Below, one piece after another: positions 1,581 through 18,976 of a stretch of 43,260 bases of DNA; positions within the stretch are counted from its first letter, which is position 1, and every line of letters starts with the position of its first letter. Under the pieces are notes generated by a model, which was not told the origin of the DNA, searched no databases, and saw nothing but the letters and a program-made list of their open reading frames with translations. A program made the translations under genes and the position numbers. Source of the DNA: Actinomycetota bacterium. GTDB taxonomy: Bacteria; Actinomycetota; Acidimicrobiia; Acidimicrobiales; Ilumatobacteraceae. The stretch is from contig WLIV01000028.1 in NCBI GenBank assembly GCA_009702045.1, positions 1-43,260 on the forward strand, written 5' to 3'.

Positions 1581-3029
1581 CTATCCGACTGCGACGGTGG
1601 CAGTGACGTTTGCGATGCGATCGCGGTAGTGCAGTTCGGAGAGGGTGTTGCGGGCGACGCCGAGGAACAGCATGTCGATGTTCTGGTTGGCCTGGCCGTA
1701 GGTGCGGGCACGTCGCCCGGGCAGTTGGGCCTTGATCCACGAGTTCAACGATTCGGTCATCTGGCGGCGGTTGTAGATCGCTGCGTAGCGCTCGTCGTCG
1801 GCGGGGAGCGCGCGCAGGTGTTCACCGATCTTGGCGCCCTCGGCGCCAGTGGGGTTCATGCGGATCTCGCCGGTGGCGCCCCAGTGGCTCGGATGGCACG
1901 CGCTCCCGGTAGGGACCCGGTAGTGGGTGTAGGCGCGCTCTCGTCCGCTCACGTTGGGGTGGAAGGTGACCTTGGTCGAATGGAGTGGAATCCAGTGGTC
2001 GTCCCCGGATGCAATCCCGCGGATCATCGCGTGGCCTCCGGTGGCATATACGTCGATCGGCTTCGTCTTGCCGTTGGGCAGGGTGAAGGTGATCTGCTTG
2101 ATGTGGATGACGTCGGTTGACTTGCCTGTCTTGTCGTAGATAGAGACGACGGGTTGCAGTCCGAGGTTCCAGGTGTCGGTGACCCAGGTGCCACGCAGGG
2201 CCTTGTCGAAGGCAAGTGCCTGCATGTCGGGGAGTTGCTCGACGATGCTGGGCAAGCTGGTGAACAGGGCGGCCATCTCGCTGTCGGTGCCTTCGGTCTT
2301 GGACACCGGGATGACGTCGAGCATGAAGATCTCGTTGGCGTGACCGGTCATGGCGGAGACGATGACGAACTTGTTCCCGAAGACCTTCTCGCCGCCACCC
2401 GTCGTGTTGTAGCTGGCATCGGGGTCGGAGCGGCGGTCGTGGAACATCTTGTGTGTGTCGCAGAACGCCTGAGTTCCGGGCGTGTATTTGGAGGCGGCCT
2501 TGAGCACGGTGCCGTCGCTGAGGAGGGTGTTGTTGACCGCCGGCTCGAGGTTGGTGCCGGTCCCGCATCCGATGCCACAGCGTGCGGCCGTGTTGATGGC
2601 GGTCAGGCGGAAGACAGCCTGAAAGCGGGCGGCGTCAGGTTTGAGGGTCTGGTCGCGTAGCCGTGTCGCCGACGTGGTGTTCGGGACGGGGGCGAAGCGG
2701 AGGCGTCGATCGTCTGGGAATAGCAGTTCGAGTTGCCGCCGGTAGTGGAACCACCGCCGACCATGTCGGAGTTCGGCCTGGACCCTGCGGGCTGATCCGT
2801 AGATGGCGATGAGCTGGCGGAAGAACATGTTGGCAACTACCGACTGCTGGCCGGGCCGGCCGGTGGCCGCGTCTGCGGCGGCGACTCGCAGGGCCTCGTC
2901 GGTCAGGGCGATGAAGCTTTCGTCGTCGAAGATCGCTTGGATTCGCCGGTTCAGTGCGATTCGGACGTCGCGCCCGGGATTCTGGGTGCGACGGAGGATG
3001 CGGGTTTCGCTGGTCCTGGTCTTGATCAT
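1581..3029 (-). CDS. IS4-type DDE transposase with YREK signature
   Basis: A 482-residue protein. Near the C-terminus YNRRQMTESLNSWIK matches Y-x2-R-x3-E-x6-K, the signature of IS4-family transposases, with E as the third acidic residue. Candidates for the two Asp residues are in LLSDGTVLKA (about residue 180) and LAFDKALRG. The long stretch between the second Asp and Glu (about 150 residues, rich in beta-type sequence) is the insertion domain usual for this group. The protein should cut and join DNA at its element ends. The ATG overlaps the stop of the upstream recombinase-like gene by ATGA, so translation is coupled. C-terminal remnants of close relatives occur at 18852, 36278 and 36966, always beside the same repeat. 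Family is secure at the superfamily level only. Confidence 0.8.
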   Translation of the reverse strand: MIKTRTSETRILRRTQNPGRDVRIALNRRIQAIFDDESFIALTDEALRVAAADAATGRPGQQSVVANMFFRQLIAIYGSARRVQAELRHGRRWFHYRRQLELLFPDDRRLRFAPVPNTTSATRLRDQTLKPDAARFQAVFRLTAINTAARCGIGCGTGTNLEPAVNNTLLSDGTVLKAASKYTPGTQAFCDTHKMFHDRRSDPDASYNTTGGGEKVFGNKFVIVSAMTGHANEIFMLDVIPVSKTEGTDSEMAALFTSLPSIVEQLPDMQALAFDKALRGTWVTDTWNLGLQPVVSIYDKTGKSTDVIHIKQITFTLPNGKTKPIDVYATGGHAMIRGIASGDDHWIPLHSTKVTFHPNVSGRERAYTHYRVPTGSACHPSHWGATGEIRMNPTGAEGAKIGEHLRALPADDERYAAIYNRRQMTESLNSWIKAQLPGRRARTYGQANQNIDMLFLGVARNTLSELHYRDRIANVTATVAVG

Positions 3030-4012
3030 GCGCTGGTCCTCCAGTGGTAGCCGACAACGCCAGCAGCGATGTCAAGGGAACGGGTACCGAGGAAGCGGGC
3101 GACATCCTCGATGGACTTCGAATGCTCGAACAGACGGCGTGCTCGCCAGGCGCGAATGTCGTCCACGGTCACGCGGGGGCGGATGGCAGCCACCTTCGAC
3201 AGGTCGCCCAGCGTGTTCGACACCGTCGAGGCTGCACTCTTCGCGCTGATCAGGACCAGCGCGACCGAGCGGTCAGCGCAGTCGGCCGTGATGTCGCCGA
3301 GCACCTGCTGGCCCCACTTCGTCAGCTTGTTGGTGCGAGGGTCGATGCGGGTGCCCCCTGGCAGCGACACTGTTCCTGCTGCTAGGTCGAAATCAGCAGC
3401 AGCGACACGGGTGATCTCGGTGTTCGTGGCACCGGCCTCTGCCAATGCCAGAACGACCGCGCGTCGAGAAGCAACCAGCTCGTGAGGCGCAGCGGCCTGC
3501 AGTCGGCGGATGATCGTGTCCGTCAAGGGCTTCGCTCGCCGCGCAAGGGCTCCGGCCACATCGAGGTCCAGCGTCGGGTCGCCGACCAGAAAGCCAACTC
3601 CGCGCAAGACCTCGAAGGCGTAGCGGACTGCTGCCCGGCGGTTCTTCTGGGTCGAGCCAGCAGGCACCGCCCAGCTGGTGCCGCTGCGGGCTGCGCCCTG
3701 GGTGAACTCTTCGGTGATCTCCGGAGTGGCCGCCGCGATCAGGCGGACTCCGTTGTGGCCCAGGTGCCGCCAGAACCGCTCGATCTCGGTGCCGCGCACC
3801 TTGCGCGTGTCCGGCATCAGCGTCGAGTCCTGTGCCAAGGCGGCGTTCACCAACTCCCGTGCGTCGGCGATCGTCAGGGGCGAGTCGACGGACACGGCGA
3901 TCCTCGCCAGCAGTGGCCCATCCGGATGAGCGGACCAGTCCCCGGGCACCCCCCAGACGCGTTCGAACAGGACGTTCTGCTGCGCTTGAGGGGCGATCGC
4001 AACGGGCTGCAC
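3026..4012 (-). CDS. Degenerate tyrosine-recombinase-like protein (integrase fold)
   Basis: A 328-residue protein. The C-terminal half follows the layout of tyrosine recombinases: RRAVVLALAEAGATNTEIT at the box I position, then a DFDLAAGTVSLPGG strand pair. A box II-like segment has DDIRAWRARRLFEHS, LGTRSLD and a final GYHW. The key residues are altered: box I Arg is replaced (TGLR to AGAT), LGH reads LGT, and only the box II Arg and a candidate Tyr remain. It is probably not a standard active integrase and may only bind DNA. The start is GTG at 4012; an in-frame TGA lies upstream and there is no clear ribosome site. It is translationally coupled (ATGA) to the downstream transposase. The assignment rests on pattern only. 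Confidence 0.5.
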   Translation of the reverse strand: MQPVAIAPQAQQNVLFERVWGVPGDWSAHPDGPLLARIAVSVDSPLTIADARELVNAALAQDSTLMPDTRKVRGTEIERFWRHLGHNGVRLIAAATPEITEEFTQGAARSGTSWAVPAGSTQKNRRAAVRYAFEVLRGVGFLVGDPTLDLDVAGALARRAKPLTDTIIRRLQAAAPHELVASRRAVVLALAEAGATNTEITRVAAADFDLAAGTVSLPGGTRIDPRTNKLTKWGQQVLGDITADCADRSVALVLISAKSAASTVSNTLGDLSKVAAIRPRVTVDDIRAWRARRLFEHSKSIEDVARFLGTRSLDIAAGVVGYHWRTSA

Positions 4013-4979: not shown

Positions 4980-6062
4980 CTATATCCCGCTCTTCCGGCG
5001 GTTGTCCTCCGCGCACAGCATCTTGCAGTTGGCTGCGATGGTCTTGCCGCCCAAGTGCCATGGCGTGATGTGATCGGCCTGCATCTCCGGTAGTTCGAAG
5101 TGGTTCTTGCACGCGGGGCAGATCCCCTTCTGCCGTTCGTACGCCTCGCGCCTCTGGTTATCGGTGAAGGCTCGGATGCTCAGCTGCCGCTCTAGGCCGT
5201 TGAGCACGTATGGGTAGATGCCCCGCTTCTTCGTCACGTCCTCGTCGGCCATCAGGGTGGCGATACTGGTCTCCAGCTTGCCTGGGTCGAGTTCGTCGTC
5301 CTTGTAAGCGTTGTACAGGTCTCCCCAGGCCACCGATTTCATCTCGGTGCGGTGCTTCGGGAAGGTTGCTCTGACCCAGCTCATCACGTTCTGGAAGTAG
5401 AGCCAGAGGTCGTTGGCGCTGGGCTTGTGCTGCTGCTTCGCCATGTAGCCCTCGATGTCACCGTGGTTGATCCACTTGATGACTGTCTCGAGATAGTCCT
5501 GGCGGATGGGTGAGCCGCTCATGTAGTCGCTGCCGATGGCGTACGCAGGGCAGCCGTTCTTGCTGAAGTACCGCTTGGCGTCGGTTACCCAACTTCCGGC
5601 GTAGACGGCATTCCGGAGCTCTTGGTCCGTGAGCTCCTCGCCGGCGATGTTGATGGTTCTGAACCAGTCCAGCCGATCGCTATCCGTCCCACTGCACAGG
5701 TAGATGGTTAGCTGGTACGCCCGAACCTGTTCCTTCTCGTCCTGCTGTAGGTTGTGGAAGTAGCGGCCCTCGAAGGCGAAGTCCCCGTCCACGAATTGGC
5801 AGAGCGAGATGGTGCGCTGCTGCCCGTCGATGATCTCGTACGTGCCGTCGTCCCGCACCGACCAGTACATGACGTTCAGCGGGAAGCCCCGACGCAGCGT
5901 CGAGATAACGGCGTCCCTCTGCTTGTCCTTGTAGACGAACTCGCGCTGGTAGGGAGGGCGCACATCGAGCTTGCCGCCGTAGGCCCGCACACCCTCCTCG
6001 TCGTTGTCCTCGTAGCCATCGACGAGGTCTCCGACGGTGATGATCTTGGGTTCGATGTTCAC
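4980..6062 (-). CDS. DUF262 (ParB/Srx-like NTPase) - HNH nuclease fusion
   Basis: A 360-residue protein starting at GTG 6062. This start is chosen because it overlaps the stop of the methyltransferase by 4 bases (GTGA); a longer reading adds a low-complexity shadow of the upstream gene. Residues 37-95 carry the DUF262 signature: PYQREFVY near 38-45 and IDGQQRT at 78-84. This is the GmrS-like nucleotide-binding site of type IV restriction enzymes and related proteins. The last 50 residues form an HNH domain with CPAC, ADHITPWHLGG and NCKMLCAEDNRRK. The likely activity is nucleotide-regulated DNA cleavage. Coupling to a DNA methyltransferase suggests a restriction-modification pair rather than a modification-dependent enzyme. 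Confidence 0.85.
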   Translation of the reverse strand: MNIEPKIITVGDLVDGYEDNDEEGVRAYGGKLDVRPPYQREFVYKDKQRDAVISTLRRGFPLNVMYWSVRDDGTYEIIDGQQRTISLCQFVDGDFAFEGRYFHNLQQDEKEQVRAYQLTIYLCSGTDSDRLDWFRTINIAGEELTDQELRNAVYAGSWVTDAKRYFSKNGCPAYAIGSDYMSGSPIRQDYLETVIKWINHGDIEGYMAKQQHKPSANDLWLYFQNVMSWVRATFPKHRTEMKSVAWGDLYNAYKDDELDPGKLETSIATLMADEDVTKKRGIYPYVLNGLERQLSIRAFTDNQRREAYERQKGICPACKNHFELPEMQADHITPWHLGGKTIAANCKMLCAEDNRRKSGI

Positions 6063-7144
6063 AGCCGCTTGTTCCGAATCAGAATGCGGGCGTATACCGC
6101 CTGGAAGTAGTCGCCACCGACGGCGTAGTAGGTCTTGCCTGCAGGTGGGGACTGGAGCTGCAGCGCGGGCGCATCGTTCAGCTTCATGACCGTTGACTTT
6201 CGGCCATCGGCGCTCACCTGCACCTGGGGCGGGTACGCCTTCGAACGCTGCTCGTCCCACGACTGGCTTGTTCCGACGATCTCGAACTGATCGGGGTTGT
6301 ACTTCTCCAAGAACGTGATCGGCACGCCCATGACGCCGGGGTAGTCCATCGGGATGTCGACCGTCTTACTGACCTCGATCGCATCGAAGTTGTCATACGT
6401 CGGGTAGTCGTCGGGGTTGTAGCTCCTGTACAGGATCAGATCCTCGTGGCGCTTCGTTGTGTCCAGGTTCGTGAACCACTGGACACCCGAGATTCGGATC
6501 ATCCCTTCCTGACGGTCGAGGTCGGTCATCGTGTTCTCGTAGCTGCTCATGAACTGCGCCATGTTCCTGGTGAAGCCATACCCCAGCCACAGGCGGTTGT
6601 CCTTGATCAGGGGGAAGATGCCTTTGTACTTGATTGCGTTCTGGTGGCCGATGATGAGGAACTTCTTGTTGTGCTCCATGAGCTGGGCCACGTACTCGCG
6701 GAACAGCGAGAAGGGAGGGTTGGTCACGACGATGTCGGCCTGCTTGAGGAGCTCGACACACTCGGTGCTGCGGAAGTCCCCGTCGCCCATGAGCGGCTTG
6801 ACGCCGATCTCCTCAACGTCCGGGACGTTGTTGAGGTTCCGGTCGCCCTCATACTCCAGGTATACGGCCGACTCGGAGTCGTTCTGGCTGAACAGGTCCC
6901 GGTCTTGGCTCTTGTAGCAAGTAGTGATGAGCTTCTTGAGACCAAGCTTCTCGAAGTTGTATGAGAAGTAGTGGAAGAAGCTGCTGACCCGAGGGTCGTC
7001 GCAGTTGCAGTACACCACCTTGCCCTCGAAATGCGTCTTGTAGTGGCGGAGTTCCCGCTCGATGTCGGGCAACTGCGTGTAGAACTCGTCCCGCTTTGCC
7101 TTCTTGGCCTCCTGGAGGCTGCTGTTCGACGCCTTGGTGACCAT
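6059..7144 (-). CDS. EcoRI-family adenine-specific DNA methyltransferase
   Basis: A 361-residue protein. The ATG at 7144 has GGGAG about 8 bases upstream and is preferred to one eight codons further out. KVVYCNCDDPRVSSFFHYF (residues 42-60) and KKLITTCYK match the conserved N-terminal block of M.EcoRI-type enzymes. VVTNPPFSLFREY (about 139-151) is the adenine-methyltransferase motif IV. The enzyme should transfer methyl from S-adenosylmethionine to adenine N6 in a short DNA target. Its target cannot be read from sequence. The stop overlaps the GTG of the DUF262-HNH gene, so the two are one translational unit: modification first, nuclease second. Confidence 0.88.
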   Translation of the reverse strand: MVTKASNSSLQEAKKAKRDEFYTQLPDIERELRHYKTHFEGKVVYCNCDDPRVSSFFHYFSYNFEKLGLKKLITTCYKSQDRDLFSQNDSESAVYLEYEGDRNLNNVPDVEEIGVKPLMGDGDFRSTECVELLKQADIVVTNPPFSLFREYVAQLMEHNKKFLIIGHQNAIKYKGIFPLIKDNRLWLGYGFTRNMAQFMSSYENTMTDLDRQEGMIRISGVQWFTNLDTTKRHEDLILYRSYNPDDYPTYDNFDAIEVSKTVDIPMDYPGVMGVPITFLEKYNPDQFEIVGTSQSWDEQRSKAYPPQVQVSADGRKSTVMKLNDAPALQLQSPPAGKTYYAVGGDYFQAVYARILIRNKRL

Positions 7145-7325: not shown

Positions 7326-8126
7326 TCAGGCCTGTCGGAGCTCGGTCACGGCTGCAGCAAGCTTCTCGGCAATGTCCTCAAGTGTCTCGGTGGCCGTGTT
7401 GAGTGCGACGATGTCAGCGAGCGACGGTGCGACTTCGAGGAGCCTCGTACGCGACAGGTTGTGCCAGATGGGCAGGATTAGCTGCTCCCCGTTCATCTGG
7501 CGGCCGACGATTCCGTCAAGCTCATACTGGGTCCAGGACTTCGTGAAGAACGTCGGGGACAGGATCACGACGGCGTAGCGGCTCTTGGCGATCGCCGCGT
7601 CGATTCCCTTGCGCAGGCTGTGGCCTACCTTCAGTTGGACCTCGTCGAGCCAGACGTTCAGCCCGCGGCCGACAAGCAGATCGTGCAGCGGCCGGGCGAC
7701 TTCGGCCTTGTCCTCGCTTGCGTGAGAGATAAACACGTCAATCCCTGGGTCGGTGTCATCCTCGTGGATCATTGCGAGGTTCCGACCGACATCAGTGATG
7801 GTGTGTGCCTGGGCCGGCCGATTCGAGTGTGCGGGTGCGGAAACGGCGGTCGGCAGACGGGCGGGTGCGCGGCGAACCTCAGCAGACGCTGAGACCTTTC
7901 CGCCGATGGGCTGCACTACGACGTGCCAGTGGCCGTCGCTCGGGACGACGAGCCGAAATGGCGAGCGCTTGACGAGTCCGCCGCCGTAACGGTACGACCG
8001 CCCAGCCTTGAATGCGGAGAGGTTCGACGGGTCGAGCAGGAGCACGTTTGACTCGACCCCTTTGAGAGTCACGATGATCTCATCGCCCCGCTGTAGGTTC
8101 GGGAAGTCGTAGTGGATGGAACTCAT
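7326..8126 (-). CDS. DUF1883-TIR domain protein, probable NAD-consuming defence effector
   Basis: A 266-residue protein. Residues 1-86 are a DUF1883 domain (IHYDFPNLQRGDEIIVTL, GGGLVKRSPFRL, GHWHVVV), a small beta module known to precede TIR domains. A Pro/Ala-rich linker of about 35 residues follows. The TIR domain (about 128-255) has DVFISHASEDK, WLDEVQLKVGHSLRKGI and the catalytic-type Glu at about 202 in SWTQYELDGIV. Bacterial TIR domains of this kind cleave NAD+ or make cyclic ADP-ribose products on phage infection. DUF1883 may sense the trigger; this is inference. The gene is a single unit with about 180 bases before the methyltransferase and 120 bases after the ABC-3C operon. Confidence 0.88.
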   Translation of the reverse strand: MSSIHYDFPNLQRGDEIIVTLKGVESNVLLLDPSNLSAFKAGRSYRYGGGLVKRSPFRLVVPSDGHWHVVVQPIGGKVSASAEVRRAPARLPTAVSAPAHSNRPAQAHTITDVGRNLAMIHEDDTDPGIDVFISHASEDKAEVARPLHDLLVGRGLNVWLDEVQLKVGHSLRKGIDAAIAKSRYAVVILSPTFFTKSWTQYELDGIVGRQMNGEQLILPIWHNLSRTRLLEVAPSLADIVALNTATETLEDIAEKLAAAVTELRQA

Positions 8127-8248
8127 GCGCTTCGCTCCTCGCCTGGGGGACAGCGGGAGGTGTCAGAAGTGTGCACCTGGTCCCCGCTTGAGACATCCTC
8201 GCGCGCAGGTGTGACGAAGATCGTCTGTCCGCTTTGCGTTGGCGTTAG

Positions 8249-10279
8249 TTAGGACGGCAAGGGCTTCAGAAGGAAGCCGTCGATAGAGATCAGGTTGTGC
8301 TGGACCCCTTCGAGCTTGCTTTCGAGTGAACGCGGATCCTCAGATGTTGCGAAGATGACTTGACCGCCACGGCTTGCGACAAGGGCTGCTTGGCGGAGAA
8401 GCGCCTCGAAGGAGACGTCTTTAGCGCTCTGCTGGCGCGGCTCGTCGAGGAGAAGTAATCGGGGATGGTTGGTCTCGTGGACACTCGAAACCTCCATCAA
8501 GCCAAGAAGGTAGGCCCAAATGACTCGGATGGAGTCCGACGCAGAGATGTCTGCCTCTAGGTCGAACTCGTCGCGCCGCGGGTGATAGTCGTCGCGTGAG
8601 ATCATCAAGTTCGCATCCAGGAAGGAACCAAAGTCGTACAGGCGAAGCTGATCTATGAACGACGTCTCAAGAGTCGCGAGTTTGGCAGCGTCGGTCTCCG
8701 ACAGCCGCTCCGCCGGAAGATCTGCCAGTTTGGCGCGAACCTCTAGAGCTGAGGAAGCGAGTGCCTCAAGGCGACTCTGGAACAGGAACCATCGCTCCTC
8801 GATCGCCACCAACCTCACGAGTTGCGCCTCACGACGAATGCGGCTGGCGATTGCCTCAACCGAAGGCGAGCCATTCGGGCCAACGAGCGATGTGCGCACG
8901 CTGCGGATCTGGCCCCGAACATCTGCCTCCTCCCGCATGTTTGCCGTAAGACGTTCACCCTTTGCCGCCATGGCGCGTGCGCTGTCCTCCTTCATCACGC
9001 GGAATAAGTCCAGTTGTTGGCTGAGATACATGACCGACTCATCTGGGGACAGTGCTGGCCCCGGCCCGAGTGCTACCAACGAGTCGGGCAGCAGTTGATG
9101 GCAGACCGGGCAAGCTTCATGCAGCTCCTCAAGAACGGGCGCACCCAATCGAACCAGAATGGCAGCGTCCCGGTGTTTGCGAAGGTCGTCCTCAAGGGCC
9201 TGAATCCGATCCTCAACAGCCGACAGCTCTGTCCGATGGCGAACCAAGTCTTCCCGGATCGCAGCGCTGGTCCTTCGTAGGGAGTCAGATCTCTCGGCCA
9301 GATCAGCGAGCCGACTCTCCAAGGCTGAGGAGTTCTCCGTGATCGCAGGAATCACGCTGCCGATGAGCGTTGCAACCTCCTGCCGCGCATTCTGGATTTG
9401 GTCGTCCAGGTCAATCCAGCCTGCCCCAACGCTGGCTGCGACGCGTGGGTCTGGGTTCGGAGGCCAAGCGACCGTGAGGTTCTTCGGCACGTTCAGCGTG
9501 ACGAGGCCCTCTCCGGTTAGCGACTCCTGGAACGCGTCGACTGATGCGCGCCACTCAAGCTGAAGTTCCGCATCGCGTGCCCGCAGGGTCTGGCGTTCCT
9601 GCTCGTACTTCCCGACATCAAGATTCAGCAGAAACTCGATGGATCGCCGTCGAACCTCGGTAACGCCTGAGAAATAGGGCATCTGCGCTTGGATGCCGCC
9701 CCACCCCCGTCGCTGCTCGACGAAGAGCAGAGGGAAGACCTGCTCCATGTACAAGGGAGCCAACTTGCCCTCCTTCGCTGGGAACAAGGGCATGGACCAA
9801 CCGATGAAGCGAGCCAGCCATTGCTGGTACCCAGCGGCACTCGACGCAGCACCGGCCCTGCCCACGTAGAGATTCTCGATTCGGTACTCGCCTGGGTCAG
9901 TGAGTGCCGGACCGTGCTCCAGCTGAATCAGGCCGACGTCAAACTGTTCATGTTTGACCCAGCGAGTGGCAGTAACAATCGCTCCGGAGCGGTTCTCAAA
10001 CTCAAGGGCAACCGAGGATGCCAGTACTGGTGTCTCAGCCTTGGTGAGAGGATCGAAAATGAGCCGGTCGCGCATGGCCGATGTCACTGCATTCGTGGGC
10101 TGAGCTGTAATCATGCGCTCAAGCCCCAATGCGAAGAGCATGCTCTTGACAGCGGTCGACTTGCCGCGGGAGTTGTCGGCCCTCAGCACGAACAGCCCAT
10201 CCCCGAACGCCAAGTCGGCCCCGAAGTCACCCCGGGCGGTGACGGCGCGAAGCCGTAGATGTCGGATCCTGAGACTCAT
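8249..10279 (-). CDS. ABC-3C system ATPase, Rad50/SMC-like with CxxC hook
   Basis: A 676-residue protein. Walker A is ADNSRGKST (about 34-42), an Asn/Ser-rich variant of GxxGxGKS. An ABC signature-like region is SASDSIRVIWAYLLGL (about 579-594), and Walker B is LLLLDEP (608-614). Two coiled-coil arms (about 295-375 and 415-460) flank ACPVC at 389-393, a zinc-hook-like turn as in Rad50. The domain order and small hook match the ATPase of ABC-three-component conflict systems described by Aravind and colleagues. Its ATG shares one base with the stop of the middle component (TGATG). It probably senses DNA or an invader structure and gates the effector; this role is inferred from the family. Confidence 0.85.
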   Translation of the reverse strand: MSLRIRHLRLRAVTARGDFGADLAFGDGLFVLRADNSRGKSTAVKSMLFALGLERMITAQPTNAVTSAMRDRLIFDPLTKAETPVLASSVALEFENRSGAIVTATRWVKHEQFDVGLIQLEHGPALTDPGEYRIENLYVGRAGAASSAAGYQQWLARFIGWSMPLFPAKEGKLAPLYMEQVFPLLFVEQRRGWGGIQAQMPYFSGVTEVRRRSIEFLLNLDVGKYEQERQTLRARDAELQLEWRASVDAFQESLTGEGLVTLNVPKNLTVAWPPNPDPRVAASVGAGWIDLDDQIQNARQEVATLIGSVIPAITENSSALESRLADLAERSDSLRRTSAAIREDLVRHRTELSAVEDRIQALEDDLRKHRDAAILVRLGAPVLEELHEACPVCHQLLPDSLVALGPGPALSPDESVMYLSQQLDLFRVMKEDSARAMAAKGERLTANMREEADVRGQIRSVRTSLVGPNGSPSVEAIASRIRREAQLVRLVAIEERWFLFQSRLEALASSALEVRAKLADLPAERLSETDAAKLATLETSFIDQLRLYDFGSFLDANLMISRDDYHPRRDEFDLEADISASDSIRVIWAYLLGLMEVSSVHETNHPRLLLLDEPRQQSAKDVSFEALLRQAALVASRGGQVIFATSEDPRSLESKLEGVQHNLISIDGFLLKPLPS

Positions 10280-10746
10280 CAGGCCCGTCCGCCCAACAGG
10301 CTTTCAACCATTGTTTGGGTCACCTTGTTCTTCATGCGGTCGAGCAGCGCTCGTTCTGTCGCAAGGGCGCCCGCGGCTTCGACAGCAACGACGACAGCGG
10401 TACCCGCCGGAAGCAGCCGGAAGGTGCCCGAGCGCTTGCGCTCCAGGTATCCGAGACCCGCAGACAGGTCGATGGCTCGATCCAGCGCAGGTTCGATTCG
10501 GACGATGGGTATGTCGGGAAGCAGCTCGCCGTCTCGGACACGTTCGAGGGCATGGAAGTTGCCGGAGCTGCGCACGGCCCAGTTCAGCACGTGGAGTGAC
10601 TTCCAGCTGGCTCCAGCTCCGTGACACCTTGAGACCAGAAGCAGCAGAAGCGCAACCTTTCGCTCAGTCCGGAGCTCTGCTGGGATGGGGTGAGGGCGCG
10701 CGCCGAAGCTGTACTCGGCATCCAGAAGGGCTTGCACGTCGCTCAT
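10279..10746 (-). CDS. ABC-3C middle component
   Basis: A 155-residue protein. The ATG at 10746 is chosen because it makes an ATGA overlap with the upstream effector gene; a start 13 codons further out would run deep into that gene. The sequence looks like a winged-helix protein: LRTERKVALLLLLVSRCHG, WKSLHVLNWAVRS, and LDRAIDLSAGLGYLERKRSGTFRLLPAG with a beta-hairpin wing. Length, position between a large effector gene and an SMC-like ATPase, and the helix-rich N-terminus fit the middle component of ABC-three-component systems, thought to bridge ATPase and effector. It has no catalytic motif that I can see. Confidence 0.75.
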   Translation of the reverse strand: MSDVQALLDAEYSFGARPHPIPAELRTERKVALLLLLVSRCHGAGASWKSLHVLNWAVRSSGNFHALERVRDGELLPDIPIVRIEPALDRAIDLSAGLGYLERKRSGTFRLLPAGTAVVVAVEAAGALATERALLDRMKNKVTQTMVESLLGGRA

Positions 10747-11846
10747 GCCGGCTCCCGAAACCTGAGCGGGCACCGCATAAGCCACTCGCTCACCTGCCCA
10801 CTCGCAAGTCGGGCTGCGTCCACCTGCCGCAGGCCGGGAACGTTGGCGAGCAGATCGTTCTGATAGCTCGCGATCAACTCGGAGACACGGTTCGCCGCCG
10901 GGTTCGATGATAGCAGGTTCTCAAGCTCAAGCTTTCGCTCGCAAAGGACTTGGCGCTCTTCGATGGCGGTTCGTGTGTGAGGCCATTCCTCAAGTTCCAG
11001 AAGAAGTTGCTCGCTCTCAAGGAAGTACCGAACCATGATGTCGCGCAGGGTCTCGCGGCCGCCAGTGTCCGTGAGTATCACCTCGATCTTGCGATCCAAG
11101 GTCGTGACGAGCTCCGGCTTCTCTGATTGGAACAACTGAGGGGCGGCCGCCTCTACCTGCGGGTCGGTCAACTCAAGTTCGGCGTAGCCACCGGCTACGA
11201 GCGCCCTGTACTCATCGGGGTAGTCGCGTGGTGTGACGATTCGAATCGCGAAGCGATCCGAGATGAAGGGAAGGCCAAAGCCCCGAACCTTCTGGGCGCG
11301 GTCTGCGGCATGAAACTGCAGCTCCGCAGCATGGAACTGAGGCACCATCAGAAAATAGAAATCGAGAAGAATCTGGTTACCTGCGAACAGCTTTGTGAGC
11401 TCCTTGCTGTAGGTCTTTAGCTTCCCTGTGTCCTGGGTCAACTTCCGCTTCTGTTTGTCGGTTCGCTGCCTGAGTGTGATCGAGTCCTGATCTGCGTAGC
11501 ACTGATACGCGATTCGGTCTGTGGAGAAGCCTTCAAGACCCCGATCGCCCCCCATCGTCGAAGGGAGGCGGATGAGATCCTTGGGCGCGTACCGACGTTG
11601 GAGCAAGCCCCAGCAAAGCTCCTCGAAATCCTCGCCCGCAGGCTGTGCTGCGATCCCATCAAGCCCGTCGATGTGGTCACAGTAGCGCCTACGCATCGCA
11701 GGGGGCACCAGTGCCGACCCACGCTGAGCCGCGCGAACCGCGGACTCACGCGCAGGCGGCTGAACCAGCCCGGGTTTGATGACTGGCTGGGGCTGCCCCT
11801 GGTTTGGCTGAGTCCTGTCGGGAGGCGGATGATGCCCTGAGGGCAT
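10743..11846 (-). CDS. ABC-3C effector with nuclease-like N-terminal domain
   Basis: A 367-residue reading frame; the first 50 residues are Pro/Gln rich and the true start may be a later Met (MRRRYCDHIDG at residue 51). The conserved part has GEDFEELCWGLLQRRY, then STMGGDRGLEGFSTDRIAYQCYADQ. This is the layout of a PD-(D/E)xK restriction-type fold (GDxGxDG then a hydrophobic strand with Q), but the usual Lys is not obvious. The second half is helical and likely the ABC-3C C-terminal domain that binds the partner proteins. It is first in a fully overlapping three-gene operon. The probable role is nucleic-acid attack once the ATPase is triggered; this is inferred from family and context. Confidence 0.7.
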   Translation of the reverse strand: MPSGHHPPPDRTQPNQGQPQPVIKPGLVQPPARESAVRAAQRGSALVPPAMRRRYCDHIDGLDGIAAQPAGEDFEELCWGLLQRRYAPKDLIRLPSTMGGDRGLEGFSTDRIAYQCYADQDSITLRQRTDKQKRKLTQDTGKLKTYSKELTKLFAGNQILLDFYFLMVPQFHAAELQFHAADRAQKVRGFGLPFISDRFAIRIVTPRDYPDEYRALVAGGYAELELTDPQVEAAAPQLFQSEKPELVTTLDRKIEVILTDTGGRETLRDIMVRYFLESEQLLLELEEWPHTRTAIEERQVLCERKLELENLLSSNPAANRVSELIASYQNDLLANVPGLRQVDAARLASGQVSEWLMRCPLRFREPA

Positions 11847-11847
11847 C
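11831..11847. other. Hairpin over the ABC-3C effector start
   Basis: GATGCCC and GGGCATC are perfect 7-base arms around TGA. The hairpin covers the first codon of the longest effector reading frame (ATG at 11846), and a GC-rich stretch follows. It could end transcription from the VRR-NUC gene that stops at 11901 or mask the first start codon. Without a T-run, either reading is weak. Confidence 0.3.
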
Positions 11848-11900
11848 CGGCCGCCGGGGCGGCGGTGCCTCTGAGCAAGAGCTTCATGACAATGGTGCGG

Positions 11901-12440
11901 TCAGCCCGGCGAGGTCAGCGGTCCCCATTCGACTACGGCGAGATCGAGCCGGTCGCCCAGCACCATGCGTGCGACGTCGGCGAAGCGATGCTGGTTGGCG
12001 CGTAGTCGGTCGGCTGATCGGGGTGTCTTCGCTTCGCGCATGGCGATTTGTCCGTCGGGGAAGCCAGCGAGCACATCAGGGAGGCCGCCGAGACGGTCGC
12101 CGTTGGCTGCACGCAGCTGGTCGATGAGTTCACCGACCGGGCCGGCAAGTGGTTGGCAGATCAGGTCGGCTCCGACGATGACGAACTTGCCCCACAGCTC
12201 GGTGAAGCAAGCCCAATCCGCTCCTTCGGCGAGGAGCTCACGGGCGATCGCTACGCCTACTGGCATCACTTCGCCGTCGAGATTGACGTAGTACTCAAAC
12301 TGGCCGTCGGACTCGGGGGCGTCGCGCCAATGTTCGCCGGGGGTGAGTCGGTAGGTCATGCGATAGTTGGCACGGTCGGCGACATCCCAGTCGCGTTCGA
12401 TGAGTCTGACCTCGGCGTTGCCGTACCGGATCGTGCGCAT
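11901..12440 (-). CDS. VRR-NUC-like PD-(D/E)xK nuclease, stand-alone
   Basis: A 179-residue protein. The C-terminal third reads GLPDVLAGFPDG, then AMREAKTPRSADRLRANQHRF and LAVVEWG. The order PD...(R)EAK...DRL-x-NQ is the core of VRR-NUC domains, a restriction-fold nuclease family found in phage and mobile elements. Asp of PD, Glu and Lys of EAK would be the metal-binding set. The first 100 residues are not recognised: they contain charged beta-type segments (EVRLIERDWDVADRANYRMTYRL) and may be a binding module. The gene lies upstream of the ABC-3C operon on the same strand, 54 bases from the longest effector start, so the two may be co-transcribed. Confidence 0.65.
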   Translation of the reverse strand: MRTIRYGNAEVRLIERDWDVADRANYRMTYRLTPGEHWRDAPESDGQFEYYVNLDGEVMPVGVAIARELLAEGADWACFTELWGKFVIVGADLICQPLAGPVGELIDQLRAANGDRLGGLPDVLAGFPDGQIAMREAKTPRSADRLRANQHRFADVARMVLGDRLDLAVVEWGPLTSPG

Positions 12441-14633: not shown

Positions 14634-14726
14634 CTCAACTCCCCCCTCGCGAATCAGGTCGACCGGTTGTGGCCAGGTTCCCGTTCTTGCGCACGTAAGG
14701 AGCATTTTTCAGATTCAACCGAGCGG

Positions 14727-14760
14727 CGTCGAGGTGCCCCCTGCCAGGGGCACTCCGACG
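14727..14760 (+). other. Long hairpin in the CBASS leader
   Basis: GGTGCCCC (14733-14740) pairs with GGGGCAC and neighbours (14747-14756) around a 6-base loop. The outer arms CGTCG and CGACG extend the stem to about 14 pairs with a G-T mismatch. It lies between the promoter at 14604 and the start at 14898. The rest of 14530-14897 holds no convincing ORF. It may be an attenuator or a stability element; nothing in the sequence decides this. Confidence 0.45.
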
Positions 14761-14897
14761 CCAGCCCGCGGAGCTGTGCAAACACAACCCCCGTTCAGGA
14801 ATGTGTTCTAGCACGGTCACTGCGGTCAATCCGTCATTGCGTCCATTCGGCGCAACCCGTGTGTCGGCGCCACGCCGACCGAAAGGAACCGTTCCTA

Positions 14898-15872
14898 ATG
14901 TCCAAGAATCTCTCTCAGCGCTTCGATGCGCTCCACGAAGCCCTCAAGCTGGATCCGGGCGAACATGCCCGGGCCATCGCAGCGCACAAGCGGCTTGACC
15001 TGATCCTGCTCGGCTCTGGGCTGGTCAAGGCCACGCGGCTTCAGGGCAGTTTCGCCCGGAAGACCATGCTGCCTCCGTTGAAGGACATCGACAAGATCGT
15101 CGAGCTGAATGATGACCTTGTCGCCGAGTTCCATGTGCCGGGTGGGCCGCAACTCGCGATGAGGCGTTTGCAGGCAGTGCTCGAACCGAAGTTCCAGGGA
15201 GCGAAGTTCGAAGTGAAGCGTCACGCGCTCTGCATCGAACTGCCCGGTGACGGCTTCGACTTCGACGCTGTGCCCGCATTCAACTCCCCGGACGGTTCGA
15301 AGTGGGTCGCGATCGCGGATACCGAGGATGACCGTTGGGAGCCGTCCAGCACATACCTCCTCATCGACGCTGTCGCGGAGCGGAATCAGCTGTGCGTAGG
15401 TCGTTTCGTGCACCAGGTGCGCATGATCAAACAGGCCGTCAGGAACGCGAACCTCGACCTCCCAGGCCTGCACATCGAGTCCTTCGCCTACGCGGCCATC
15501 AATTCGCGACTGGACCACGCTGACGCCGTCGCAGCGGCGTTGAACACAGCAGCAACCATGATCCGCGGCTCCTACACCGACCCAACGGGTACCGACTTCA
15601 TCGACCGCCGGCTGACGGCGGAGCAACGTGCGAAAGCCACTACCGGGCTACGCCTTCTCGCTGATCAGGCCAACGAGGCGCAGCGCCTTAGCGCTGAGGG
15701 CCGCGAAGGTGCAGCCACCCACATCTGGGCGGACATCTTCGGCGACGCATTCCCACGGCTGGCCGACGAGAAGGGTTTCCTCGCGTCGTTGCACGCAGGA
15801 GCCGGGCTCGGCCACAGCGGCCGTCCCGGTTCGTCGAGTCCTACGCCGCCCACTCGGGCGTGGCGCCCATGA
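14898..15872 (+). CDS. CBASS CD-NTase (cGAS/DncV-like cyclic oligonucleotide synthase)
   Basis: A 324-residue protein; ATG 14898 has GAAAGGA about 11 bases upstream, and longer readings run into the leader. The nucleotidyltransferase core is clear: GS at 50-51 in RLQGSFARKT, DID at 63-65 (metal-binding Asp pair), and FDFDAVPAF near 120-127 for the third Asp. The helical C-terminal half (about 160-290) is usual for SMODS-type enzymes. On phage sensing it should make a cyclic di- or trinucleotide that activates the effector. The stop overlaps the next ATG (ATGA). The tail after residue 300 is Gly/Ser/Pro rich and ends in Pro, unlike the Gly or Ala end reported for enzymes that are conjugated by Cap2. 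The product nucleotide is not predictable here. Confidence 0.88.
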   Translation: MSKNLSQRFDALHEALKLDPGEHARAIAAHKRLDLILLGSGLVKATRLQGSFARKTMLPPLKDIDKIVELNDDLVAEFHVPGGPQLAMRRLQAVLEPKFQGAKFEVKRHALCIELPGDGFDFDAVPAFNSPDGSKWVAIADTEDDRWEPSSTYLLIDAVAERNQLCVGRFVHQVRMIKQAVRNANLDLPGLHIESFAYAAINSRLDHADAVAAALNTAATMIRGSYTDPTGTDFIDRRLTAEQRAKATTGLRLLADQANEAQRLSAEGREGAATHIWADIFGDAFPRLADEKGFLASLHAGAGLGHSGRPGSSSPTPPTRAWRP

Positions 15873-17106: not shown

Positions 17107-17583
17107 ATGCGCGCCATCCAACGCCGTCAAGCCCGGCAAGCACTCGATGATCGCTTCGGGAAGCTTGAGCGATCAGCTCTCGCTGCGCCGCGCATGGGGT
17201 GGATCCGCGCCATCCGAGATGCGCTGGGTCTCAGCACCCGGCAACTCGCTGACCGTCTCGACGTTTCTGGCCCTGCCGTCACTGGCTTGGAAGCATCTGA
17301 ACGCGCCGGCACCATTCAGCTCGACACGCTTCGGAGGGTCGCAGCTGCCATGGAGTGCGAGGTCGTGTACGCGCTCGTCCCGAGAAGCGGATCTCTCGAA
17401 GCGGTTGTGCTCAAACGTGCAGAACAAGCTGCGGTCCTTGAGCTCAAGCGTCTCAACACCACGATGCGCCTTGAAGACCAAGGACTCGACGCTCAGCGCC
17501 TCAGAGCTGCACTGGTCAATCTGACGCACACGCTCCAAGACAGCTCGCGGATCTGGGATGAGCCGCTCAAGCATCGCTCATGA
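17107..17583 (+). CDS. Mobile mystery protein A (XRE-type DNA-binding protein)
   Basis: A 158-residue protein behind AAGGAGGGG. Residues 28-85 carry an XRE HTH: GWIRAIRDALGLSTRQLADRL, VSGPAVTGLEASERAGTIQL and LRRVAAAMECEVVYALVP. The sequence layout MRAIQRRQARQALDDRF at the N-terminus and the CEVVYALVP strand after the HTH match mobile mystery protein A (TIGR02612), always found beside protein B. It probably represses the pair and may neutralise the Fic partner; the latter is inference. The intergenic region upstream (16960-17106) is AT-richer and has TTGCAA and TATGCT boxes at sub-optimal spacing. Confidence 0.85.
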   Translation: MRAIQRRQARQALDDRFGKLERSALAAPRMGWIRAIRDALGLSTRQLADRLDVSGPAVTGLEASERAGTIQLDTLRRVAAAMECEVVYALVPRSGSLEAVVLKRAEQAAVLELKRLNTTMRLEDQGLDAQRLRAALVNLTHTLQDSSRIWDEPLKHRS

Positions 17584-18197
17584 GCACCCCGCCTGGGTTC
17601 CTCTTAGAACCTGAACCAGATGGCGCCACACCACTCAGCCCAGAGGACGCCGAGGGACTCAAGCCGACATGGATCGCAACGCGAGGAGAACTCAACCAAG
17701 CGGAGATGGCCAACATCACGCAAGCGGTGATCTGGGCCTACGTGGGCCGCCGGCCGATAGCGAGCGTCGAGGAGCTGCTCACTATCTCGTTCTCGGACCT
17801 GCTGCACAAGAAGATGTTCTCCGACGTGTGGACGTGGGCTGGAAGGCATCGCCGATCGCAGACCAACATCGGAGTAGAGCCGTATCTGATCGTGCCGCAG
17901 ATGAAGCTGACCTTGGATGACGCGTGGTTCTGGCACGAGCATCAGACATACCCGCCTACTGAGCTCGCTGTGCGGTTACATCATCGGCTTGTGGTCGTGC
18001 ATCCGTATCCAAACGGCAACGGGCGCCACACGCGCATGATGGCAGACCTCTACTTGCACCTGGTTGGGATGCAGCGGTTGTCGTGGGGAGGGGAGTCCCT
18101 CGTCGGAGACAGCGAGGCTCGCCGCACCTACATCGAAGCGGTGATTGCGGCGAACGGCCATGACATCAAGCCCTTGCTCGAGTTCGCGACCTCATGA
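17580..18197 (+). CDS. Mobile mystery protein B (Fic domain)
   Basis: A 205-residue protein; ATG 17580 overlaps the stop of protein A (ATGA). The opening PPGFLLEPEPDGATPLSPEDAEGLKP and TRGELNQAEMANI are typical for mobile mystery protein B (TIGR02613; segments abbreviated to PDGATPLSPED and RGELNQAEMANI). The Fic core has HPYPNGNGRHTR (141-152): catalytic His, Gly-Asn-Gly-Arg present, with Asn in place of the usual Asp/Glu. Fic proteins transfer AMP or other groups to target side chains. The pair is known from mobile elements and behaves like an addiction or defence module in position; its true target is unknown. The stop overlaps an ATG of a 35-codon frame that I do not trust. Confidence 0.88.
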   Translation: MSTPPGFLLEPEPDGATPLSPEDAEGLKPTWIATRGELNQAEMANITQAVIWAYVGRRPIASVEELLTISFSDLLHKKMFSDVWTWAGRHRRSQTNIGVEPYLIVPQMKLTLDDAWFWHEHQTYPPTELAVRLHHRLVVVHPYPNGNGRHTRMMADLYLHLVGMQRLSWGGESLVGDSEARRTYIEAVIAANGHDIKPLLEFATS

Positions 18198-18625: not shown

Positions 18626-18851
18626 TCTGACCAGGGACGTAACCGATTCGGCCGTTTCACGTAACTGACCTCGTGGCCAGGCCTTACGCCTGTTGGGCCG
18701 CAGAGTTTCGCTCCGCCCCCGAGGGGCATGGGGGCGGACCAGAACCCGCGGCAGAACTGTCGCGGAGGGCTGGTGCGCACCCTGTTTGTCTGAACGGGCA
18801 GGCTACTTGCCTGTCGGGCAGGTCGAACCGGTCGGTTCATCTGAACCGGCG
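18626..18851 (-). repeat. Structured repeat, copy B (right edge of the defence island)
   Basis: It starts at CTGACCAGGGACGTAACC, the outer boundary shared with copies C, E and F. It then has CTCCGCCCCCGAGGGGCAT and GGGGGCGGACCAGAACCCGC, the latter identical to copy A (copies C and E read GGTCAGAACCCGC). The ACCGGTCGGTTCATCTGAAC end follows. The closing GCCGCCCC palindrome is absent because the element is deleted at about 18852, where a transposase remnant begins. Same orientation as all other copies. Confidence 0.85.
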
Positions 18852-18976
18852 GGGTGTTGGCGACTCGGTCGCGGTAGAGCAACTCGGACAGCGTGCTGCG
18901 GGCGATGGCGATGAACATCAGATCGACGTGCTGGTCGGCCTGGCCGTAGGTGCGGGTCCGTTGGTCGGGCAGTTGG
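18852..18976 (-). pseudogene. YREK transposase remnant, C-terminal about 40 codons (copy B)
   Basis: On the minus strand this encodes RTRTYGQADQHVDLMFIAIA, then RSTLSELLYRDRVANTP, which aligns with RARTYGQANQNIDMLFLGVA-RNTLSELHYRDRIAN at the end of the 1581 transposase. The catalytic part and stop are lost. The remnant ends about 20 bases before the start of the epimerase-like gene, so that gene may use promoter sequence supplied by the remnant. Decay is shown by loss of the upstream protein and of the repeat's closing palindrome. Confidence 0.8.

Follow-up and report, generated by a model that had tools for sequence, protein, structure and literature searches.

The 43,260-nucleotide stretch analyzed here (contig WLIV01000028.1, from an Ilumatobacteraceae bacterium; hereafter the window) carries on its minus strand a two-gene unit: a predicted adenine-specific DNA methyltransferase of the EcoRI family (M) and, following it, a predicted nuclease (R) that joins a DUF262 (ParB/Srx-like NTPase) domain to an HNH domain. 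M (6059..7144, minus strand, 361 residues) starts with ATG at 7144 and stops with TGA at 6061-6059, and R (4980..6062, minus strand, 360 residues) starts with GTG at 6062 and ends at 4980; the stop of M and the start of R share the tetranucleotide GTGA (6059..6062, minus strand). A 426-residue open reading frame (ORF; 4980-6260) was rejected as R, being merely the longest frame, and the starts of relatives coincide with the GTG at 6062. Window M matches Pfam EcoRI_methylase (PF13651, E = 5.9e-134, profile positions 2-345 of 345), which places it in that family, and PADLOC MTase_II (PDLC03297, E = 1.1e-117, residues 2-294); it is 52% identical over 299 residues to the M of the EcoRI restriction-modification system on an Escherichia coli plasmid. 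Window R matches DUF262/GmrSD_N (PF03235, E = 1.4e-20, 74.7 bits against a cut-off of 33.2) and holds the DGQQR motif of that family, and it also matches HNH (PF01844, E = 7.2e-09) and PADLOC REase_II (PDLC03418, 5.4e-139, residues 1-358). The matches and the shared GTGA thus bear out the preliminary description of this DNA, which had reported an EcoRI-type methylase overlapping a DUF262-HNH frame by four bases. Neither a specificity subunit nor an EcoRI-type nuclease, both of which it took to be absent, is listed among the 21 window ORFs scanned, which are a part of all the ORFs in the window.

The AlphaFold2 (AF2) model of M (predicted local distance difference test, pLDDT, 83.1) has a methyltransferase fold. 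Its structure matches are headed by rRNA adenine dimethylases and include, among DNA methyltransferases, M.TaqI, the EcoKI methylase and M.BseCI; Foldseek alone gave no match to the model at E ≤ 0.001, and a sequence search for a solved relative gave none that was convincing (best E 0.89). An NPPF motif occupies residues 142-145, with N142, P144 and F145 present in 160 of the 160 loci compared below and P143 in 159. C-terminal of this motif, flanked by conserved scaffold, lies a hypervariable cassette resembling a target recognition domain, which runs from WLG to WFTN (approximately residues 187-222; 6479..6586, minus strand) and is mostly 33-46 residues long. The entropy profile marks a second hypervariable segment in the C-terminal part of M (approximately residues 292-348; 6101..6271, minus strand). 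Grouped by single linkage at 50% identity, the cassettes of 163 M sequences form 34 types, 20 of which are singletons, and the window cassette belongs to type T01. When locus pairs with R identity of at least 0.8 are considered, the C-terminal segment is 46% identical between like cassettes and 13% between unlike ones; because this segment is identical in loci L046 and L111 despite their different cassettes, the two parts can move apart. Judged from the alignments, the cassette probably sets the recognition specificity of M. Eight of the 160 DUF262 loci (two of them alike) have an EcoRI-type cassette and may methylate GAATTC. On a Variovorax plasmid (L006, 1288-4011), two EcoRI-type methylases with different cassettes precede one R.

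The R model (pLDDT 90.3) has an NTPase-like N-terminal domain (residues 3-143; 5634..6056, minus strand), containing YQR at 38-40 and DGQQR at 79-83, and a C-terminal HNH domain (residues 298-360; 4983..5171, minus strand). With VIA-align, the former superimposes on BrxU (7p9k; Z 9.1, 125 residues aligned, root-mean-square deviation 3.5) and on SspE (6jiv; Z 7.1, 127 aligned, 3.6), and the latter on the HNH domains of Cas9, EcoKMcrA and Gme HNH (Z 7.2-7.5), where values of Z below 8 possibly reflect just a shared arrangement. Structure matches of the whole model hardly cover the middle of R (approximately residues 145-297), and Foldseek alone returned no match at E ≤ 0.001. Across the 160 loci, Q39-R40 and DGQQR are invariant and Y38 is found in 139, while the HNH residues H331 (160), D330 and N345 (159 each) and N354 (156) are nearly so. 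DUF1524 (PF07510) has no match in R at E ≤ 0.01; the C terminus is instead a PF01844 HNH, which sets R apart from GmrSD. The SF2 helicase and nuclease domains of Type III Res are likewise not among the Pfam matches of R, which are DUF262 and HNH alone.

To characterize the pair more widely, R loci were drawn from plasmids, phages, species genomes (80), viral contigs and sampled genomes. The scans contributed the best 80 of 424 matches in genomes, 80 of 183 for R in viral contigs and 80 of 331 for M in viral contigs, a selection that favors relatives near the query. Removal of repeat fetches by hand left 181 R loci. The pair, whose failure to recur the preliminary description had named as refuting its reading, is found again in 176 of these, where an EcoRI-family M lies no more than 4.5 kb away on the strand of R; the remaining five have an R that starts 1-424 bases from the edge of its contig, and L057 among them yields a weak M match at lower stringency. 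M precedes R in 175 of the 176 loci, L016 having the order R-M. A spacing of -4, as in the window, is the commonest (58 of 175 M-to-R loci), and 153 of 175 fall between -17 and +29. The overlap therefore agrees with the suggestion that R is translated only together with M as far as its frequency goes, but coupling is ruled out as an essential feature by gaps of at least 30 bases in 21 of the 175, by the one R-M locus and by a gene lying between M and R in L026 and L028. That gene (L028, 3021-3950; both loci are from Bacteroidota metagenome-assembled genomes, MAGs) has a Fic-like motif, recognized by eye; in L007, an Enterococcus dispar plasmid, a predicted optrA resistance gene separates the two.

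The distribution of the pair is broad and patchy. A named phylum is available for 65 of the 159 loci looked up, with 18 phylum-rank names that include Bacteroidota, Bacillota, Pseudomonadota, Actinomycetota and candidate phyla; L023 and L064 are archaeal MAG contigs. Within the phylum of the window R is sporadic, occurring in 7 of 396 sampled genomes with the window's own included, and the host genome, when searched, had a single DUF262 match. Seen from the M side (80 viral and 11 genome loci, partly on the same contigs), R accompanies M in 65 of 91 loci, 5 of these R being partial; the remainder comprise 6 loci with R.EcoRI, 15 with neither nuclease and 5 cut by a contig edge. In the loci examined, DUF262-HNH R was found with the EcoRI methylase family only. 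The pairs of two Gracilibacteria loci (L049, L051) contain in-frame TGA, as expected for code 25. A broken M stands beside an intact R in L011 (M cut short next to an IS256 gene), in L019 (one in-frame stop) and, from MAGs or viral contigs, in L022, L069, L091, L140 and L146. Such loci would be compatible with an R that does no harm when M is missing, and we give them no weight, since sequencing error is possible and R may not be expressed. In L140, a 166-kb viral contig, M has three in-frame stops and R none, which perhaps reflects stop-codon recoding or decay.

We then compared R with the cassette of its partner. Twenty-one of the 181 loci were left out (M below 280 residues, R below 330 residues, or M absent), leaving 160; six further near-identical loci were kept among these and removed for trees only, giving 154 tips. 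Across pairs of the 160 loci, which are not mutually independent, R identity follows that of the M scaffold (Spearman 0.58) and shows hardly any relation to that of the cassette (0.14). Closely related R are found beside unrelated cassettes: R is 99% identical in L046 and L111 (four residues differ, one of them the start) with cassettes at 23% (29% after pairwise realignment), 98% in L028 and L029 with cassettes at 10% (9%), 94% in L026 and L028 with cassettes at 10% (9%), 94% in L021 and L032 with cassettes at 26% (30%) and 91% in L033 and L038 with cassettes at 8% (14%). For the window itself the nearest R is that of L096 (81%), whose T19 cassette is 10% identical to the T01 cassette of the window. 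At R identity of at least 0.85, 19 of 35 pairs share a cassette type and 16 do not, and 9 of the 19 are near-copies with R at or above 0.95; of the 18 R clusters defined at this threshold, 9 hold more than one cassette type. Conversely, cassettes at least 80% identical stand beside R as low as 48% identical. On the R tree the cassette type changes 97 times, where the least possible is 33, and 35 of 51 sister pairs have different types. Some R columns (e.g., 202, 170, 169 and 6) differ oftener when cassettes differ, and the R identity of such pairs is slightly lower (0.80 versus 0.83). When L046, whose M is cut by the edge of its contig, is compared with L111 at the nucleotide level, R is 95-100% identical and M 93-100% identical over its final 300 columns, against 28-55% in the cassette region and 72-90% in the stretch before it, which suggests that recombination is behind cassette exchange.

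As a control we used R.EcoRI, which occurs with the same methylase family. Twelve loci were assembled, consisting of five from plasmids, L095 and six viral loci; for the plasmids, 7 of 19 listed records were taken, chosen for their span of identities, and 5 have an EcoRI-family methylase. L208 and L209 hold R.EcoRI relatives beside other methyltransferase annotations, with no M.EcoRI match there. Although R.EcoRI identities in the 12 loci range from 0.58 to 1.0, a single cassette type is present throughout. For pairs at nuclease identity 0.60-0.95, the cassette type is shared by 62 of 62 pairs with R.EcoRI and by 692 of 5279 with DUF262-HNH when gaps are ignored, or 658 of 5279 when gaps count as mismatches. 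These comparisons indicate that a site-reading nuclease keeps the methylase cassette fixed and that DUF262-HNH does not. Because R, unlike R.EcoRI, does not track the cassette of M, it very probably does not read the site by itself.

Phage loci add a further aspect. In the mycobacteriophages Norz, Hami1 and Marchy, M (98% covered, 55% identical) is followed by a 50-residue hypothetical gene whose first 46 residues are the start of R (61-63% identical); these truncated R starts lie at 5062-5214 in L013 and at 2565-2717 in both L211 and L214. In each of three viral contigs (L215, L218 and L267), M matches over its full length without stops and is followed by an R that matches only as far as residue 85, 69 and 71, respectively, with enough remaining DNA for a whole R, and R is broken in the viral locus L232. 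Flavobacterium phage laban6-1 has both M and R. Viral contigs could contain host DNA. Phages thus look as if they retain a protective M and lose R, a pattern that fits restriction of unmethylated DNA; an M beside a truncated R is as expected if M alone protects. In two gut phages (L212, 609-2717; L213, 622-2748), an EcoRI-type adenine methylase and a cytosine-5 DNA methylase are joined in one protein. These 702- and 708-residue "DNA methyltransferases" were considered as M-R fusions and rejected, as the partner is the cytosine-5 methylase.

Based on these comparisons, we favor, at slightly better than an even chance, a two-gene system in which M would provide the specificity for both modification and restriction and R would be a nucleotide-gated effector. 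M would methylate adenine at its own site in host DNA and would be the sole reader of DNA sequence; R would do no reading of that site and would be directed by M, most likely by contacting M bound at an unmodified site, and would then nick or cut upon nucleotide binding or hydrolysis. Modified host sites would give R no licence, and a cassette swap would re-aim modification and restriction jointly, as in Type III Mod/Res. We favor M as the specificity subunit because cassette exchange beside an independently reading R would expose the host chromosome. The sequence comparisons show a conserved pairing, conserved active-site residues, an R that stays constant as the cassette changes and a cassette that stays fixed with R.EcoRI; that the cassette sets specificity, that M and R form a physical complex, that nucleotides gate R, that unmodified DNA is cleaved and that the pair serves in defense are inferred. 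The preliminary description had likewise suggested cleavage of unmethylated DNA under nucleotide control, which stays a more sensible reading than attack on modified phage DNA in view of the conserved unit and of the NTPase-nucleases BrxU and SspE.

The chief rival is a mark-reading nuclease of the SspE kind, which we consider unlikely: R would sense N6-methyladenine through DUF262 without touching M, and the mark would control nucleotide hydrolysis and nicking by HNH. In SspE, according to parts of PMC9646914 and PMC13251355, the phosphorothioate is sensed by Y30 and Q31 of the N-terminal domain, GTP hydrolysis depends on DGQQR, and the DGQQR NTPase licenses an HNH nickase. The matches of the R N-terminal domain to SspE (Z 7.1) and BrxU (Z 9.1), together with the invariant Q39-R40 and DGQQR (160 of 160; YQR 38-40 would correspond to SspE 30-32), speak for such sensing, which would also account for the indifference of R to the cassette and for the lack of a docking surface on M (see below). 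However, the SspE mark sits in one fixed sequence, and R would need to sense a methyl group independently of sequence. Dam methylation would mislead a sensor of N6-methyladenine that ignores context, presumably for example in the Aeromonas host of L003. This mechanism would moreover allow other adenine methylases as partners, yet the EcoRI family alone is seen with R. Phosphorothioation or ssp annotations are absent from the scanned window neighbors and from loci L002-L012, where Ssp profiles were not searched separately. R and SspE are alike in being DUF262 NTPase plus HNH-fold effectors that stand beside a modification system and keep DGQQR; they differ in the mark, which for M-R would be a methyl group added by a single gene product and for SspE is a phosphorothioate from SspABCD, and in that R has 360 residues and a PF01844 HNH, whereas SspE has 771 (in the part of PMC9646914 concerned) and reads one fixed sequence.

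Two further mechanisms fare worse. A conventional Type II enzyme, with R reading the M site independently, would agree with the PADLOC labels (Type II REase and MTase) and with the typical look of a small, frequently plasmid-borne gene pair, but exchanging cassettes beside a constant R, as in 9 of 18 clusters, would be suicidal for it. The R.EcoRI control fits what such an enzyme should do and DUF262-HNH does not, and the co-change of specificities expected of conventional Type II systems is missing (Spearman 0.14; 35 of 51 sister pairs; 62 of 62 versus 692 of 5279), assuming that the cassette sets specificity. Variability in R also stays below that of the two hypervariable segments of M, with a peak 10-residue mean entropy of 2.2 bits as compared with 2.9 and 3.4. 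Going by these alignments, R is unlikely to be a conventional Type II enzyme that recognizes the M site for itself, and as a complete account of the pair we rate this reading improbable. A Type IV-like enzyme, by which R would attack modified phage DNA with the methylase as guard or passenger, is highly improbable. GmrSD and BrxU do share the DUF262 fold and attack DNA with modified cytosine, as described in parts of PMC4619093 and PMC10952713, and they resemble R in combining a DUF262 N-terminal domain (BrxU Z 9.1) with an HNH-type nuclease domain. But they cut without needing a methylase, whereas 176 of the 181 R loci include an adenine methylase gene, often overlapping that of R, and the others lack upstream DNA. 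The recognition-like part of M diversifies, and R has the classic PF01844 HNH, with their DUF1524 (PF07510) unmatched.

Several observations weigh against direction of R by M. A docking surface specific to DUF262-partnered M was sought and not found, as only 2 of 84 highly conserved columns differ from EcoRI-partnered M, and in L021 and L032 the M scaffold is 53% identical while R is 94% identical; neither result points to an interface under fine co-evolution. Nor did the loci examined show M and R fused. Cassettes are non-random on the R tree, with 97 changes against 108.5 ± 3.0 after shuffling (lowest of 500, 99), which is what shared descent would give. The EcoRI control is small, its 12 loci including 4 with partial R.EcoRI and 2 that are alike, and its pairs are non-independent. 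The R profiles were built from M-partnered R, and distant M-less relatives would escape them. Finally, the argument assumes that different cassettes mean different sites.

The surroundings of the pair in the window resemble a multi-system defense island. A TIR-DUF1883 gene (7326-8126) lies directly upstream, followed by matches to LmuB (8249-10279), LmuC (10279-10785) and LmuA (10743-11846) of Lamassu, the TIR-DUF1883 and Lamassu stretch spanning 7326-12440; a SMODS-domain gene (14667-15872) on the Lamassu side and a Fic-domain gene (17580-18197) complete the set. On the opposite side are an integrase-like gene (3026-4012), which scores under the Pfam cut-off, and a tRNA-Lys gene (1315-1389). 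Direct repeats at 1383-1728 and 18721-18976 (131 nt at 89% and 121 nt at 80%), approximately 17.3 kb apart, flank the M-R and defense region, the first beginning within the tRNA-Lys gene; they are perhaps the boundary of an integrated element.

Among known systems, the closest parallel to the proposed M-R mechanism is Type III. In Type III systems, within what parts of PMC3311624 report, res is conserved and mod recognition domains are exchanged; Mod/Res is like M-R in having two genes and a conserved restriction subunit, and its exchangeable recognition domain in the methylase would correspond to the cassette of M. Restriction there uses nucleotides (same source and extent), and for R nucleotide gating is the corresponding proposal. 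The differences lie in the proteins: R is a 360-residue DUF262-HNH protein and Res a helicase with PD-(D/E)XK, no translocase domain being seen in M-R, and M is of the EcoRI family with NPPF, whereas Mod has DPPY. The comparative pattern of a conserved R and an exchanged cassette fits a possible Type III-like role of the methylase subunit in recognition for restriction. The EcoRI restriction-modification system shares the methylase family, but its nuclease is unrelated, and its cassette stays constant where the one beside DUF262-HNH is exchanged. The pairing itself, which the preliminary description had put forward as a possible new architecture, has already entered databases: PADLOC-DB has a model for each protein, under the names Type II REase and MTase. 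PDLC03418 and PDLC03297 cover the R and M families, also match distant members, and provide a label that leaves the mechanism unstated. Many of the plasmid R matches listed overlap or adjoin a gene annotated "adenine-specific methyltransferase EcoRI family protein", and a paper describing this M-R pair was not found in the open-licence PMC literature searched. The pairing is therefore already known to annotators, and what is new is that R does not track the recognition-like cassette of M.

Tentatively, and at a little under an even chance, the pair may represent an unrecognized class filed under Type II, in which specificity would reside in M alone, a nucleotide-gated DUF262-HNH nuclease that does not itself recognize the site would be aimed by M, and phages would drop the nuclease and retain the methylase; a cassette of approximately 40 residues, sometimes with the C-terminal segment, would re-program both activities across bacteria, archaea and phages. 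If M alone steers R, a large group of systems that carry the Type II label has been typed wrongly, and approximately 34 natural types of recognition-like cassette in a two-protein system of approximately 720 residues could be studied and perhaps used for re-programmable cutting. Because nature provides near-identical R with methylases of unrelated cassettes, what DUF262 senses, whether a mark, a partner protein or a nucleotide, becomes testable.

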